Below, in pieces: positions 22,880-27,918 of a stretch of 34,714 nt of DNA. This DNA is from Clostridiales bacterium. GTDB taxonomy: Bacteria > Bacillota > Sulfobacillia > CADDZV01. Position numbers and translations under genes: made by a program. Within the stretch, counting starts at the first letter, position 1. Every line of letters starts with the position of its first letter. Under the pieces are notes generated by a model, which saw only the letters and a list, made by a program, of their open reading frames with translations, did not search any database and had not been told where the DNA came from. Where the stretch lies: positions 1-34,714 of the forward strand of contig CADDZV010000012.1 of the NCBI GenBank assembly GCA_902812875.1, in the 5' to 3' direction.

Positions 22880-23152
22880 GTGCCTTCATCGCAGGGCGCG
22901 CTGTGGTCGCGCCTGAAACCCGCCATTCAGACCGTGGGGGCCGGCAATGTGGTCAGAGTGGCCTTCTATGCCCGGTTGAAGAGGATGCTTGACGCGCGGT
23001 GCCCGGCGCCAGGGAAGGCCGGCGAAGGGCGGTTCCGAGGGGTGCTGGTGCCGGGCGTAGTCACCTGGTCGGTGCGGGGGTTGGCTGGTCTTGTGGAAGC
23101 GATGGCGGCGGATTTCACGGGGTTGGACTGGCTGATCGATTGCCGGTGTTGA
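22880..23152 (+). CDS. Small hypothetical protein
   Basis: A 90-residue protein I do not recognise. It starts with GTG 22880 behind a strong AGGGAGGAG binding site at 22863-22871, 8 bases away, which is the main reason to believe it. The sequence is basic at the N-terminus (WSRLKPAIQTVGAGNVVRVAFYARLKRML), with a hydrophobic middle (GVLVPGVVTWSVRGLAGLVEAM) and a cysteine pair at the end (CRC). It converges with the second peroxiredoxin and overlaps its 3' end by 38 bases. Confidence 0.5.
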   Translation: MPSSQGALWSRLKPAIQTVGAGNVVRVAFYARLKRMLDARCPAPGKAGEGRFRGVLVPGVVTWSVRGLAGLVEAMAADFTGLDWLIDCRC

Positions 23153-23756
23153 AGAATCCCACGTCCGCCCAAGGAGGCGGCAGCGCGGCCTGTCCCGGGT
23201 ACCACCCGGCCTGCGTGTGTCGCCCCGTGGCGGCCACGAACTGGAACGCCTGCAAAGCCCGCAGCAGTTCCCCGGTACTGCGTCCCACGCTGCCGTTGTA
23301 GATAAAATACCCGCGGAGTATCCCATCGGGATCGATAAAAAACGTCCCCCGGAAATCGGTCCCGTCCTGCGGGTTGAAAACGCCATACGTGCGGCTGACC
23401 GTGTGCGTGCGGTCCGCCAGTACCGGGAATGGCACCCCGCGGACGTTTGGCGAGTACTGGCCTTCGATCTTGTGCGCGTAGACGCTGTCCGGGGATATCG
23501 CCAGCACCTCAGTCTTCAGCCTTTGCAGTGTTTTATAGACGGACGCGACCGCGCCGAGCTCGGTCGGTCAGACAAACGTGAAATCGGCACTGAAAAACCA
23601 AAGCACCACAAAGCGGCCCCGGAGGTCGTCGAGGCAAATGTTCACCTCCTTCCCATTGTGCACCCCTGGCAGGCAGAAGCGCGGGGCCGGTTTATCGATC
23701 GCCAGCGTTCCCCGGGGGACCGTTACGCCCCCCGGCTCGGGTGCCACGCTGCTCAC
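23115..23756 (-). CDS. Selenocysteine peroxiredoxin (copy 2), in-frame TGA at the peroxidatic position
   Basis: An AhpC/Prx1-type peroxiredoxin of 213 residues if TGA 23570-23568 is read as selenocysteine (U63). The frame continues unbroken on both sides, giving FTFVUPTEL in place of the universal FTFVCPTEL. Thr60 of the active-site motif is kept, while its usual proline is Ser. The C-terminal resolving cysteine (VCPxxW region) is replaced: TQAGWYPG has Thr181. Two cysteines, C28 and C41, lie near the N-terminus and are shared with copy 1. A hairpin with GGUC loop follows the TGA. The GTG start at 23756 or 23747 follows GAGGTGA. The gene is 18 bases after copy 1 in the same operon. It should reduce peroxides with a thiol or glutaredoxin partner. 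The C-terminus is longer than copy 1. Confidence 0.85.
23542..23555 (-). promoter_or_regulatory. Candidate bacterial SECIS hairpin of peroxiredoxin copy 2
   Basis: On the minus strand GGCGC (23555-23551), loop GGTC (23550-23547) and GCGTC (23546-23542) form a 5-bp stem with one G-U pair. The loop begins 17 bases after the TGA. A G in the first loop positions and this distance agree with bacterial SECIS elements; the loop resembles GGUC in E. coli fdhF. Confidence 0.65.
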
Positions 23757-23774
23757 CTCGCATCCTTGATGGCC

Positions 23775-24335
23775 CTAGAACTTGCCAATGTCTTCCCACT
23801 GGGGCAAAAGCCCTTGCCAGCCAGGCTCCCAGTTGGCCTGTGCCCGCCGGCCGGTTTCAGCCACGTACTGGTACGCTTGCAGGGCACGCAAAATCTCGTC
23901 GGCGCTGCGGCCGACCGTGTCGTTGTAAACCATATACCCGCGCAGGATACCCTGGGGATCGATGATGAAAAGGCCGCGGTAGGCTCTGCCCTCCTCGGGG
24001 TTGTATACACCATAGGCACGGCTGATTTCGTGGTTGCGGTCTGACAGCACCGGGTACTGCACATAGCGGGCGTTGGGCGAGTGCAACCCTTCCATCTTGT
24101 GTGCGTAGATGCTGTCGGTGCTTATCGCCAGCACCTCGGTGTTCAGCTGTTGCAGGGTGGGATAGATGGATGCGACCGCACCCAGCTCGGTGGCTCAGAC
24201 AAATGTAAAGTCATTTCCGTAGAAAAGGATAAGCACCCACTTGCCCCGCAAATCTTCGAGGCAGACCGTGGTTTGTTTTCCCAGGTGCACTGCCTGTGTA
24301 CAGAAGCGCGGTGCCGGGGCGTCGATGACCGGCAT
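23775..24335 (-). CDS. Selenocysteine peroxiredoxin (copy 1), in-frame TGA at the peroxidatic position
   Basis: A 186-residue peroxiredoxin when TGA 24197-24195 is read as selenocysteine (U47): FTFVUATEL replaces FTFVCPTEL. The N-terminal part, MPVIDAPAPRFC then TVCLEDLRGKWVLI, is the normal peroxiredoxin fold start, with C12 and C25 where Thr and Ser are usual. The resolving cysteine is lost: RRAQANWEPG has Ala165. The active-site proline before FTFV is Gly. After the TGA the frame runs ATELGAVASIYPTL and on through FPVLSDR-type and DPQGILRGY segments to the end. The ATG lies 1 base after the LysM gene stop with GGAGGGGGATG as binding site. A 6-bp GGUC-loop hairpin follows the TGA. It is a tandem paralogue of copy 2. 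Confidence 0.87.
24168..24183 (-). promoter_or_regulatory. Candidate bacterial SECIS hairpin of peroxiredoxin copy 1
   Basis: Minus strand: GGGTGC (24183-24178), loop GGTC (24177-24174), GCATCC (24173-24168), a full 6-bp stem with one G-U pair. The loop starts 17 bases after the TGA, exactly as in copy 2, although the stem sequences differ. Confidence 0.7.
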
Positions 24336-24336
24336 G

Positions 24337-24825
24337 TCACATCCCCCTCCTCATGTCAGGGCTAGGTATGCTGCGCAGGCGGAACGGCGGCAGGCACACC
24401 ATGGTCCCGGCGGGGATCTCGTCCGGGTTGGTGATGTGTTGGTTCACAGCGATCACTGCCTGGGGCACAAGCCCGTAACGGCGGGCGATGGTAAAAAGCG
24501 TGTCGCCAGGCCGCGGGCTTATGAAGCGGCCGTGGGTGCACATGATGGTTTTTTGATCGCAGTCGAGGTAGCACCGGACGCACAAGGCCTGTTGCAGGCT
24601 TGACGGGGCAGCGGTGCCAGGCAGCATATGCATGTGTGAGCGGAACGATGCCACGGCTTGGGCGGTGCGCCGGTCGTAGATACCGTTTACGGGGCCGGTG
24701 TAAAACCCTCGCATGGTCAATGCCATCTGCAAGGCCCGGACATCCGGACCCTGCAACGGCGGTGTGGAAAGCCACAGGATACGGAATATCCGATAGCAGC
24801 GGCGCCGCTTGCCGCCAGGGTGCAT
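24337..24825 (-). CDS. Peptidoglycan-binding and LysM domain protein
   Basis: A 162-residue protein. Residues about 16-85 form a PG_binding_1 repeat (LQGPDVRALQMALTMRGFYTGPVNGIYDRRTAQAVASFR). Residues about 106-150 form a LysM domain (PRPGDTLFTIARRYGLVPQAVIAVNQHI). Both bind cell-wall glycans. Between them is a cysteine cluster (CVRCYLDC, then C). No clear signal peptide is seen; the N-terminus MHPGGKRRRCYRIFRILWL is basic then hydrophobic and may serve as one in part. The ATG follows GGGAGGAGGGATC. It is the first gene of the operon with the two selenocysteine peroxiredoxins, an unexpected pairing. Confidence 0.82.
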   Translation of the reverse strand: MHPGGKRRRCYRIFRILWLSTPPLQGPDVRALQMALTMRGFYTGPVNGIYDRRTAQAVASFRSHMHMLPGTAAPSSLQQALCVRCYLDCDQKTIMCTHGRFISPRPGDTLFTIARRYGLVPQAVIAVNQHITNPDEIPAGTMVCLPPFRLRSIPSPDMRRGM

Positions 24826-27125: not shown

Positions 27126-27181
27126 AGGTTTTACCTCCCTGCGGTTAGCATTGCCGCACGGCGAGCCCGGTCATTCCGGAC

Positions 27182-27197
27182 GGGGGGCACGCCCCCG
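27182..27197 (-). terminator. Short GC hairpin between the glutaredoxin-zinc ribbon gene and zip
   Basis: GGGGGC (minus 27196-27191) pairs with GCCCCC (27188-27183), 12 bases after the zinc-ribbon stop. It lacks a T-tract and is a weak terminator or stabiliser. Confidence 0.3.
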
Positions 27198-27208
27198 CAT
27201 CCTGGCTA

Positions 27209-27577
27209 TCAGGTGCAGGGGCGGCGGGTGCCGTAGCCGCAAACGGGGCAAAGGAGGACCCCGTTTTCATCGACCTGGAGGGCCGCAAACCCACAGTTCG
27301 GGCACAGCTCGCCGGCTGCGAGAAATACCACGGGCCGCAGCGCCCCGGGCTGCACCCGGTCGATCACCTCGTGGATGGCCGGTAACCCGGCATGGATCTC
27401 GCTACCCACTTTTACTGCGGGCAGCCCGGTGCCGGCCGGGAGGACATGTGCTCTCTCTTGCGGTTGCAGGACGATTTCCTGATACGCAATCTGGGCTTGC
27501 GCGAGCCACGCCCGCGCTTCGTGACACTCGTCTCAGCCCGGAGCCGTATACAATATCCAATCTCTGTCGGTCGGCGT
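27209..27577 (-). CDS. Candidate selenocysteine glutaredoxin fused to a zinc ribbon (U-x-x-C)
   Basis: Reading TGA 27535-27533 as selenocysteine joins two in-frame parts into a 122-residue glutaredoxin-fold protein. WILYTAPG leads into UDEC (U15-C18) where glutaredoxins have CxxC. Then come HEARAWL, IAYQEI, and the cis-proline segment TGLPAVKVGSEIHAG (P53), as in the neighbouring CRFC glutaredoxin. Residues 92-114 form a zinc ribbon, CPNC and CPVCGYG. An 8-bp hairpin follows the TGA. The start is unclear: no ATG/GTG/TTG has a binding site. ACG 27577 lies 7 bases after GGAGG and gives the expected N-terminus; TTG 27553 would remove the first strand. If only 27409-27209 were translated, the fold would be cut in half. 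It likely reduces disulfides or recycles the peroxiredoxins (inference). Confidence 0.7.
27499..27517 (-). promoter_or_regulatory. Candidate bacterial SECIS hairpin of the glutaredoxin selenoprotein
   Basis: Minus strand GCGCGGGC (27517-27510), loop GTG (27509-27507), GCTCGCGC (27506-27499): an 8-bp stem with one G-U pair. The loop begins 23 bases after the TGA and starts with G, within the described bacterial SECIS range. Confidence 0.55.
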
Positions 27578-27594
27578 GTTTCTCCCTCCCGGCA

Positions 27595-27624
27595 AAAAAG
27601 GCCGGGTATAACCCCGGCCTTTTT
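27595..27624 (-). terminator. Intrinsic terminator after groES
   Basis: On the minus strand GGCCGGG (27619-27613) pairs with CCCGGCC (27606-27600) around a 6-base loop, flanked by A5 and T6. This is a clear rho-independent terminator, 18 bases after the groES stop. The downstream glutaredoxin selenoprotein gene would need read-through or its own promoter. Confidence 0.88.
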
Positions 27625-27642: not shown

Positions 27643-27918
27643 TTATTCAGGCTTTAGGATGGCAAGCACGTCCGACCGCTGGAGGATGACGTAGGTGGTG
27701 CCGTCAAGCTTGACCTCGTTGCCGCCGTACTTGGCGAACAGCACGATGTCATGTGCCTTGATTTTTTCCTTGAGGTCGTCGTCGGTGCCGACAGCGATGA
27801 CCTCACCCTGCTGCGGCTTTTCCTTGGCCGTGTCAGGAATGATGATGCCGCCTACTTTTTTCTCCGGTTCCTCAATTGGCTTGACGAGGATCCGGTCGTC
27901 CAACGGTTGAATCTTCAT
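27643..27918 (-). CDS. groES: Co-chaperonin GroES, standing alone
   Basis: A 91-residue co-chaperonin that caps GroEL. The family features are complete: KIQPLDDRILVKP, the mobile-loop segment EKKVGGIIIPDTAKEKPQQGEVIAVG, and KYGGNEVKLDGTTYVILQRSDVLAIL at the end. The ATG at 27918 sits 6 bases beyond the core of an AGGAGGG site; an ATG two codons earlier directly abuts it. No groEL follows; a terminator does. No CIRCE repeat is seen. The gene lies behind the glutaredoxin gene and probably shares its CsoR/CstR-like promoter. It may be a second groES specialised for thiol or metal stress, or the sole one split from groEL. Confidence 0.93.
   Translation of the reverse strand: MKIQPLDDRILVKPIEEPEKKVGGIIIPDTAKEKPQQGEVIAVGTDDDLKEKIKAHDIVLFAKYGGNEVKLDGTTYVILQRSDVLAILKPE

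Follow-up and report, generated by a model that had tools for sequence, protein, structure and literature searches.

On the minus strand of the window, by which we mean the whole stretch of 34,714 nucleotides that was analysed, a short open reading frame with two CPxC motifs is preceded, across an in-frame TGA codon at 27535-27533, by what looks like a glutaredoxin active site. The question raised by this locus is whether the TGA is read as selenocysteine (Sec, U) and, if so, what protein results and where it ends. Our analysis points to a single polypeptide containing two selenocysteines, one in the glutaredoxin active site and the other as the last residue; we consider this explanation, taken in full, to be likely.

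Reading frame of the gene

The gene of this putative double selenoprotein (27206-27577, minus strand) encodes a UxxC glutaredoxin domain, a zinc ribbon and a C-terminal C-T-U. Its frame is open from 27577 to 27209 with a single internal TGA (27535-27533), and an in-frame TGA is located upstream at 27649. With TGA translated as U, the frame reads TPTDRDWILYTAPGUDECHEARAWLAQAQIAYQEIVLQPQERAHVLPAGTGLPAVKVGSEIHAGLPAIHEVIDRVQPGALRPVVFLAAGELCPNCGFAALQVDENGVLLCPVCGYGTRRPCT, then TGA TAG; the motifs ILYTAPG-U-DEC-HEARAWL, the cis-Pro segment GTGLPAVKVG and CPNC...CPVC are distributed along it. If the ACG codon at 27577 is the start, which is uncertain, the product is 123 residues in length and its stop is the TAG at 27208-27206.

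No canonical start codon (ATG, GTG or TTG) was found at good spacing in this gene. A Shine-Dalgarno-like sequence, GGGAGGG (27584-27590, minus strand), is situated 6 nt before the ACG, and a start at the TTG at 27553 would remove most of the first glutaredoxin strand. The numbering of U as residue 15 in the initial annotation depends on the ACG start, and the lack of a well-spaced ATG, GTG or TTG was not mentioned there. A terminator-like hairpin, AAAAAGGCCGGG-GTTATA-CCCGGCCTTTTTT (27594-27624, minus strand), stands after groES and directly upstream of the gene. We regard this strong hairpin and the non-canonical start as real weaknesses; since the hairpin adjoins the gene upstream, expression is unproven and can only be inferred. 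The GC contents by codon position are 0.72/0.50/0.74 in the gene and 0.64/0.45/0.77 in the neighbouring genes. The glutaredoxin-ribbon fusion is known from one genome only, a fragmented assembly of 1.85 Mb in 88 contigs (96% complete), and no second example was found in the genomes searched; transcript, protein and selenium data are lacking.

Glutaredoxin domain across the TGA codon

The glutaredoxin domain, with the order b-a-b-a-b-b-a, occupies positions 27345-27562 (minus strand, limits approximate), and its cis-Pro codon is at 27421-27419. When C was put in place of U, the usual way of scoring Sec proteins with Pfam, the PF00462 score was 23.8 bits against a cut-off of 22.9; with X at the TGA the match was not reported at E 0.01. 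A profile of relatives from the same class, from which the window gene was left out, gave 31 bits across the TGA (X at that position) versus 18 bits for the portion downstream of it. The AlphaFold model displayed the complete b-a-b-a-b-b-a order with a mean pLDDT of 79, and Foldseek matched it to Grx1, Grx3 and NrdH structures with rmsd values of 2.5-4.0 A. We concluded, with good support from sequence comparison, that a complete glutaredoxin fold spans the TGA. Membership of the Sec-glutaredoxins rests on the class-level profile and the fold, and a disulfide reductase activity dependent on glutathione or thioredoxin reductase would be an inference only. Glutaredoxin-like matches were detected in 115 of the 154 genomes of the class, and many of these matches contain one in-frame TGA.

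The first selenocysteine codon and SECIS 1

The TGA at 27535-27533 (minus strand) corresponds to the U of U-D-E-C, and relatives have U or Cys at the same column. From the class, 27 sequences with U, among them that of the window, and 25 with Cys were extracted and compared. U occupies this Sec position in at least 26 relatives; every U sequence can be aligned on the strand-U-x-x-C motif, and nearly all have a covarying hairpin in one register.

In the window this hairpin, SECIS 1 (27499-27517, minus strand), is GCGCGGGC(GTG)GCTCGCGC; its 8-bp stem begins 15 nt past the TGA, its loop, GUG, lies 23 nt past it, and its energy is -13.2 kcal/mol. It satisfies the criteria given for bacterial SECIS elements, which are a loop of 3-9 nt, a stem of 4-16 bp, G in the first two loop positions, a spacing of 16-37 nt and an energy of at most -7.5 kcal/mol (PMC13188914, Fig. 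2). Dinucleotide shuffles did not separate SECIS 1 from chance (z -0.59). Because such plain shuffles are uninformative, comparative evidence is what counts for this element, and it was judged by synonymous codon redraws and covariance models instead. An equal G-first stem arose in only 0.09-0.5% of the synonymous redraws. Out of 8 cells, a mean of 6.9 hairpin pairs was kept in the 27 U members versus 3.8 in the 25 Cys members. Covariation in the U set was 0.27 versus 0.10 after shuffling, a value reached by none of 500 shuffles, and covariation in the Cys set lay much closer to the shuffled values. A covariance model of 23 other sequences, with the window left out, detected 27535 at 35.6 bits (E 1e-7), the next best match scoring 9.9; a model of the same 23 sequences without base pairs gave 12.7 bits at 27535. 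That TGA 27535 is a Sec codon served by SECIS 1 is thus well supported by sequence comparison, and the Sec-glutaredoxin part is a new member of an established family (PMC13188914, Table 1).

The hairpin in the common register was absent from two U relatives, those of genomes G108 and G049. The former (L053) is a canonical YTTPSUPHC glutaredoxin with TGA and no hairpin in that register; any SECIS it has is different. A 6-bp SECIS-like hairpin is kept in two Cys glutaredoxins (L112, 191-235; L117, 1534-1578), which perhaps represent recent Sec-to-Cys changes. Genome G110 also encodes a second Grx/ArsC-like U protein (L051, FYHKHGUGACESVKAWLS), whose gene has an 8-bp hairpin in the common register.

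Selenocysteine machinery and other selenoproteins of the genome

The genome harbours a tRNA-Sec with anticodon TCA (75.9 bits) together with SelB, SelA (592 bits) and SelD, so the set of selA, selB, selC and selD is complete. The gene of SelD (G000 contig C29:16915-17838, L067) has a TGA at SKSGU-ACKI, and we therefore concluded that SelD is itself a selenoprotein. The selA gene adjoins selD. Two genes of Sec-peroxiredoxins with the motif FTFVU are situated about 3 kb from the window gene on the same strand, one at 23775-24335 (minus strand, Sec codon 24197-24195) and the other at 23115-23756 (minus strand, Sec codon 23570-23568). Hairpins with GGTC loops follow the TGA codons of this tandem pair (23115-24386, minus strand).

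The claims of the initial annotation concerning this part of the locus were borne out. It had read the frame across the TGA as a glutaredoxin fold (YTAPG, UDEC, HEARAWL, TGLPAVKVG) followed by two CPxC motifs, had placed an 8-bp G-first hairpin 23 bases after the TGA (the distance to the loop, the stem beginning at 15 nt), and had pointed to two more selenoprotein candidates within 4.5 kb, which are the FTFVU peroxiredoxins with Sec codons at 24197 and 23570. Those of its named checks that could be run also support it: alignments with homologues extend across the TGA, with U or C at that position, all four sel genes are present, and the hairpin meets the PMC13188914 criteria and covaries among the U members, far less among the Cys members.

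The zinc-ribbon domain and its family

The ribbon, CPNC-x14-CPVC-GYGTRRPCT (27212-27304, minus strand), matches a family of small standalone proteins of about 45-60 residues, which is itself well supported at the sequence level. Members were found in nine genomes of family f37, which belongs to the same class as the window, and in the Zixibacteriota assembly L004; when that genome (G536) was taken as the centre of a search, the ribbon was detected, at E 1e-4, in 28 of the 132 genomes belonging to its phylum. The relatives inside that phylum are not independent of each other, and how the genomes are related is only partially known. No relatives were found in plasmids or viral contigs. Frames of 422 residues in G079 and G084 were considered as further fusions and rejected, the 75 residues before the ribbon having no glutaredoxin motif.

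The four-Cys knuckle pair is invariant in all 33 family members, and the window ribbon keeps every family-invariant residue. Pfam gave many sub-threshold zinc-ribbon matches to the ribbon, none of them decisive, and no Pfam or NCBIfam model exceeded its cut-off for the ribbon members tested, one protein standing exactly at the cut-off of the generic Auto_anti-p27. Metal binding is inferred, and whether the metal is zinc or iron is undecided. It is possible that the CPxC...CPxC domain is an iron-binding, rubredoxin-like electron-transfer site and not a structural zinc ribbon. This reading is favoured by the redox gene context of the ribbon genes and by Foldseek, in which the best match of the ribbon model, an insignificant one, was an Fe-bound CBS-rubredoxin-like protein; against it, the sequence matches are mostly zinc ribbons (L37Ae, S27ae, TFIIB, RNA polymerase), none of which settles the metal.

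A probable second selenocysteine codon at the C-terminus

Thirty-three C-termini of ribbon proteins were readable, that of the window included. In 32 of them TGA comes after C-T, C-G or a variant of these, and a further stop codon, TAG (19), TAA (8) or TGA (5), stands directly behind it, whereas only 9 of 223 (4%) TGA-ended long ORFs of the same loci, taken as a control, had such a tandem stop. In the window the TGA is at 27211-27209 (minus strand), directly followed by TAG at 27208-27206 (minus strand). A hairpin is found 15-21 nt past the TGA in all 32 cases, with a loop beginning with G[G/U] or N-G[G/U] (GGUC, GUU, CGUGC and so on). That of the window, SECIS 2, lies in the 3' untranslated region (27180-27198, minus strand) and has the sequence GCGGGGG(CGUGC)CCCCCGU; it satisfies the PMC13188914 criteria (7 bp, loop CGUGC, 17 nt from UGA to loop, -12.6 kcal/mol), and its extended stem at about 27205-27176 reaches -19.9 kcal/mol.

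When the 3' hairpins were aligned with MAFFT, RNAalifold returned no structure, since stems of opposite composition are placed out of register by MAFFT. The hairpins were instead assessed by loop-anchored counts with shuffle controls and by one equal-length set. The mean 3' stem was 6.4 bp versus 1.6 in equally treated dinucleotide shuffles, the highest of 300 shuffled sets being 2.2. The 26 distinct stems were 95.5% paired versus 47% when the arms were re-dealt among the members (maximum 65% in 1000), and in the equal-length subset, to which the window belongs, covariation was 0.69 versus 0.21, reached by 0 of 500 shuffles.

Of the 33 members, 32 retain the Sec codon and 28 the Cys two residues earlier. 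No relative with Cys at the C-terminal Sec position was found when the ribbon profile was run against roughly 640 genomes. SelB is present in all nine ribbon genomes of f37, in the L004 genome and in that of the window; G078, which shares its genus with three of the f37 ribbon genomes, has neither a full ribbon nor SelB over the cut-off. From these comparisons, the identification of TGA 27211 as a Sec codon with SECIS 2 is well supported, and it is most likely that the ribbon family ends in C-T-U or C-G-U. Since a second Sec codon is the probable reading of TGA 27211-27209, the end of the frame, set at 27209 by the initial annotation, had to be corrected, the coding sequence most likely ending at TAG 27208-27206. 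That annotation was correct but incomplete: the C-terminal Sec of the ribbon and of its whole family, the more surprising part, had been missed.

Four divergent ribbon proteins (L149, L151, L157 and L160) have altered ends. One of them, L157, ends in SCG-TGA without tandem stop or hairpin, and Sec has therefore possibly been lost from it.

Proposed decoding and alternative explanations

In the explanation that we favour, SelB acting on the hairpin inside the coding sequence would allow TGA 27535 to be decoded as Sec in the UxxC site of the glutaredoxin, and SelB acting on the second hairpin, in the 3' untranslated region, would allow TGA 27211 to be decoded as the last residue (C-T-U-COOH), after which translation would end at TAG 27208. 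The ribbon itself would be a copy, fused to the glutaredoxin, of the small standalone selenoproteins with C-terminal Sec found in two phyla.

One competitor, which we regard as unlikely, is that only TGA 27535 encodes Sec, TGA 27211 being an ordinary stop, the 3' hairpin a terminator or mRNA stabiliser and the TAG a backup stop. In its favour, hairpins often follow genes, the 3' hairpin of the window taken alone is only modestly unusual (p 0.015; z -2.1), a run of T follows the hairpin in some relatives (L155, L161), and a Cys-terminated relative is missing from the genomes searched. Against it stand the tandem stop in nearly every member versus the 4% expected, the SECIS-type loop at a fixed 15-21 nt with no T run in most members, the co-occurrence of the ribbon with SelB, and the retention of U where the neighbouring Cys is lost. 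A terminator or backup stop fails to explain the combination of tandem stop, hairpin and SelB.

Very unlikely, in our view, is a decaying pseudogene, that is, a glutaredoxin-ribbon gene that has lost its start and gained a nonsense TGA. The absence of a canonical start, the terminator-like hairpin directly upstream and the occurrence in a single genome speak for it. However, the TGA falls exactly on the codon of the catalytic Cys, where relatives carry U; there is no other stop or frameshift across 122 codons; the invariant ribbon residues and a perfect 8-bp SECIS 1 are kept; and the GC contents by codon position are near those of the neighbouring genes. Also very unlikely are two products, with TGA 27535 mostly terminating and the ribbon made as its own small selenoprotein from a GTG near 27333: the ribbon is standalone elsewhere and this GTG is in frame before it, but the glutaredoxin fold continues in frame beyond the TGA to the ribbon, SECIS 1 is conserved, and no clear Shine-Dalgarno sequence precedes the GTG.

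Relation to known selenoproteins

The window gene shares with the known Sec-glutaredoxins (PF00462, UxxC; PMC13188914, Table 1) the fold, the replacement of the first active-site Cys by U and a SECIS in the coding region; unlike them, as they are listed with one Sec, it adds a C-terminal Sec-bearing ribbon. The Uxx-star proteins (NF041211, NF041212, NF041114) also have a glutaredoxin-like domain with U, but the window scores far below their cut-offs (25.1 versus 66 bits for NF041212), and these models comprise 70-71 residues without a ribbon. The ribbon family resembles DUF466/KCU-star (NF033934; PMC4607533) in being small, with Sec as the last residue followed by TAA or TAG and with a SECIS beyond the gene end. 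The two differ in that the sequences are unrelated (no NF033934 match), DUF466 ends in C-U and the ribbon family in C-T-U or C-G-U, and the ribbon family carries the CPxC ribbon and has no Cys-ending relatives that we could find. The dual CXXC motif small selenoprotein (NF041197) is likewise small with two CxxC motifs and one Sec, but none of 9 ribbon sequences matches NF041197.

Animal thioredoxin reductase ends in G-C-U-G. By analogy, the flexible C-terminal Cys/Sec pair may here too receive its electrons from another redox centre of the same protein, although there is no sequence relation, the partner in the window is the glutaredoxin domain with its UxxC site, and no residue follows Sec; the same analogy has been drawn for DUF466 (PMC4607533).

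Neither the ribbon family nor the fusion is included in a 2026 inventory of 119 prokaryotic families. No paper combining selenoprotein, zinc ribbon and SECIS, or selenocysteine, glutaredoxin and zinc ribbon, was found in the literature searched, outside which most subscription papers lie; the statement of the initial annotation that no selenocysteine glutaredoxin with a C-terminal zinc ribbon is known agrees with this search. Sec-glutaredoxins and C-terminal Sec were thus known already, the double-Sec architecture is new, and the ribbon family and its fusion were not found in Pfam, NCBIfam or the papers searched.

To gene finders, proteins ending in Sec resemble ordinary TGA-stopped proteins, and homology searches drop the last residue. 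The authors of the DUF466 study suggested that more families with terminal Sec could be found (PMC4607533), and the ribbon family, which occurs in two phyla and whose SECIS lies beyond the coding region, appears to be one such. A simple screen for others would look in Sec-decoding genomes for TGA directly followed by a stop, with a hairpin of G[G/U] loop some 18 nt further along.

Genomic context and inferred function

At about eight loci of the L004 phylum (L150, L154, L155, L156, L158, L159, L161 and L162), a standalone ribbon gene ending in C-T-U comes after a thioredoxin gene, with CoA_binding_2 between them in two, and in most of these an OsmC gene follows. Such thioredoxin-OsmC clusters were seen in one phylum only. 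From these clusters, the fusion to the UxxC glutaredoxin and the Sec-peroxiredoxins nearby, we infer, without any protein data, that the flexible C-T-U tail is a selenol or selenenyl-sulfide redox centre which would be reduced by a thioredoxin-fold partner. In the standalone clusters this partner would be thioredoxin, acting in trans, and in the window it would be the UxxC glutaredoxin to which the tail is attached, acting in cis. The tail would pass electrons to an oxidised protein, to peroxide or to a peroxidase. Its Cys and Sec could form a selenenyl-sulfide; the Cys is not essential, since a few members are without it. The fusion to a Sec-glutaredoxin points to the role of the tail and offers a testable case, with two selenocysteines in one small protein.

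A bolder reading is a selenium relay within one chain, in which the U of the glutaredoxin would exchange electrons directly with the C-terminal U via a diselenide or selenenyl-sulfide that forms transiently; the standalone ribbon family would be a general electron carrier, working through its C-terminal selenol, for thioredoxin-fold enzymes in at least two phyla. Taking both parts together, we lean slightly against it.

Two further features of the neighbourhood were observed. A gene of a ZIP-family metal transporter (27125-26331, minus strand) is located directly downstream of the selenoprotein gene, and a perfect sigma-70 promoter (TTGACA, 18 nt, TATAAT; 28296-28267, minus strand) lies upstream of a Cys glutaredoxin gene (28207-27977) and groES.
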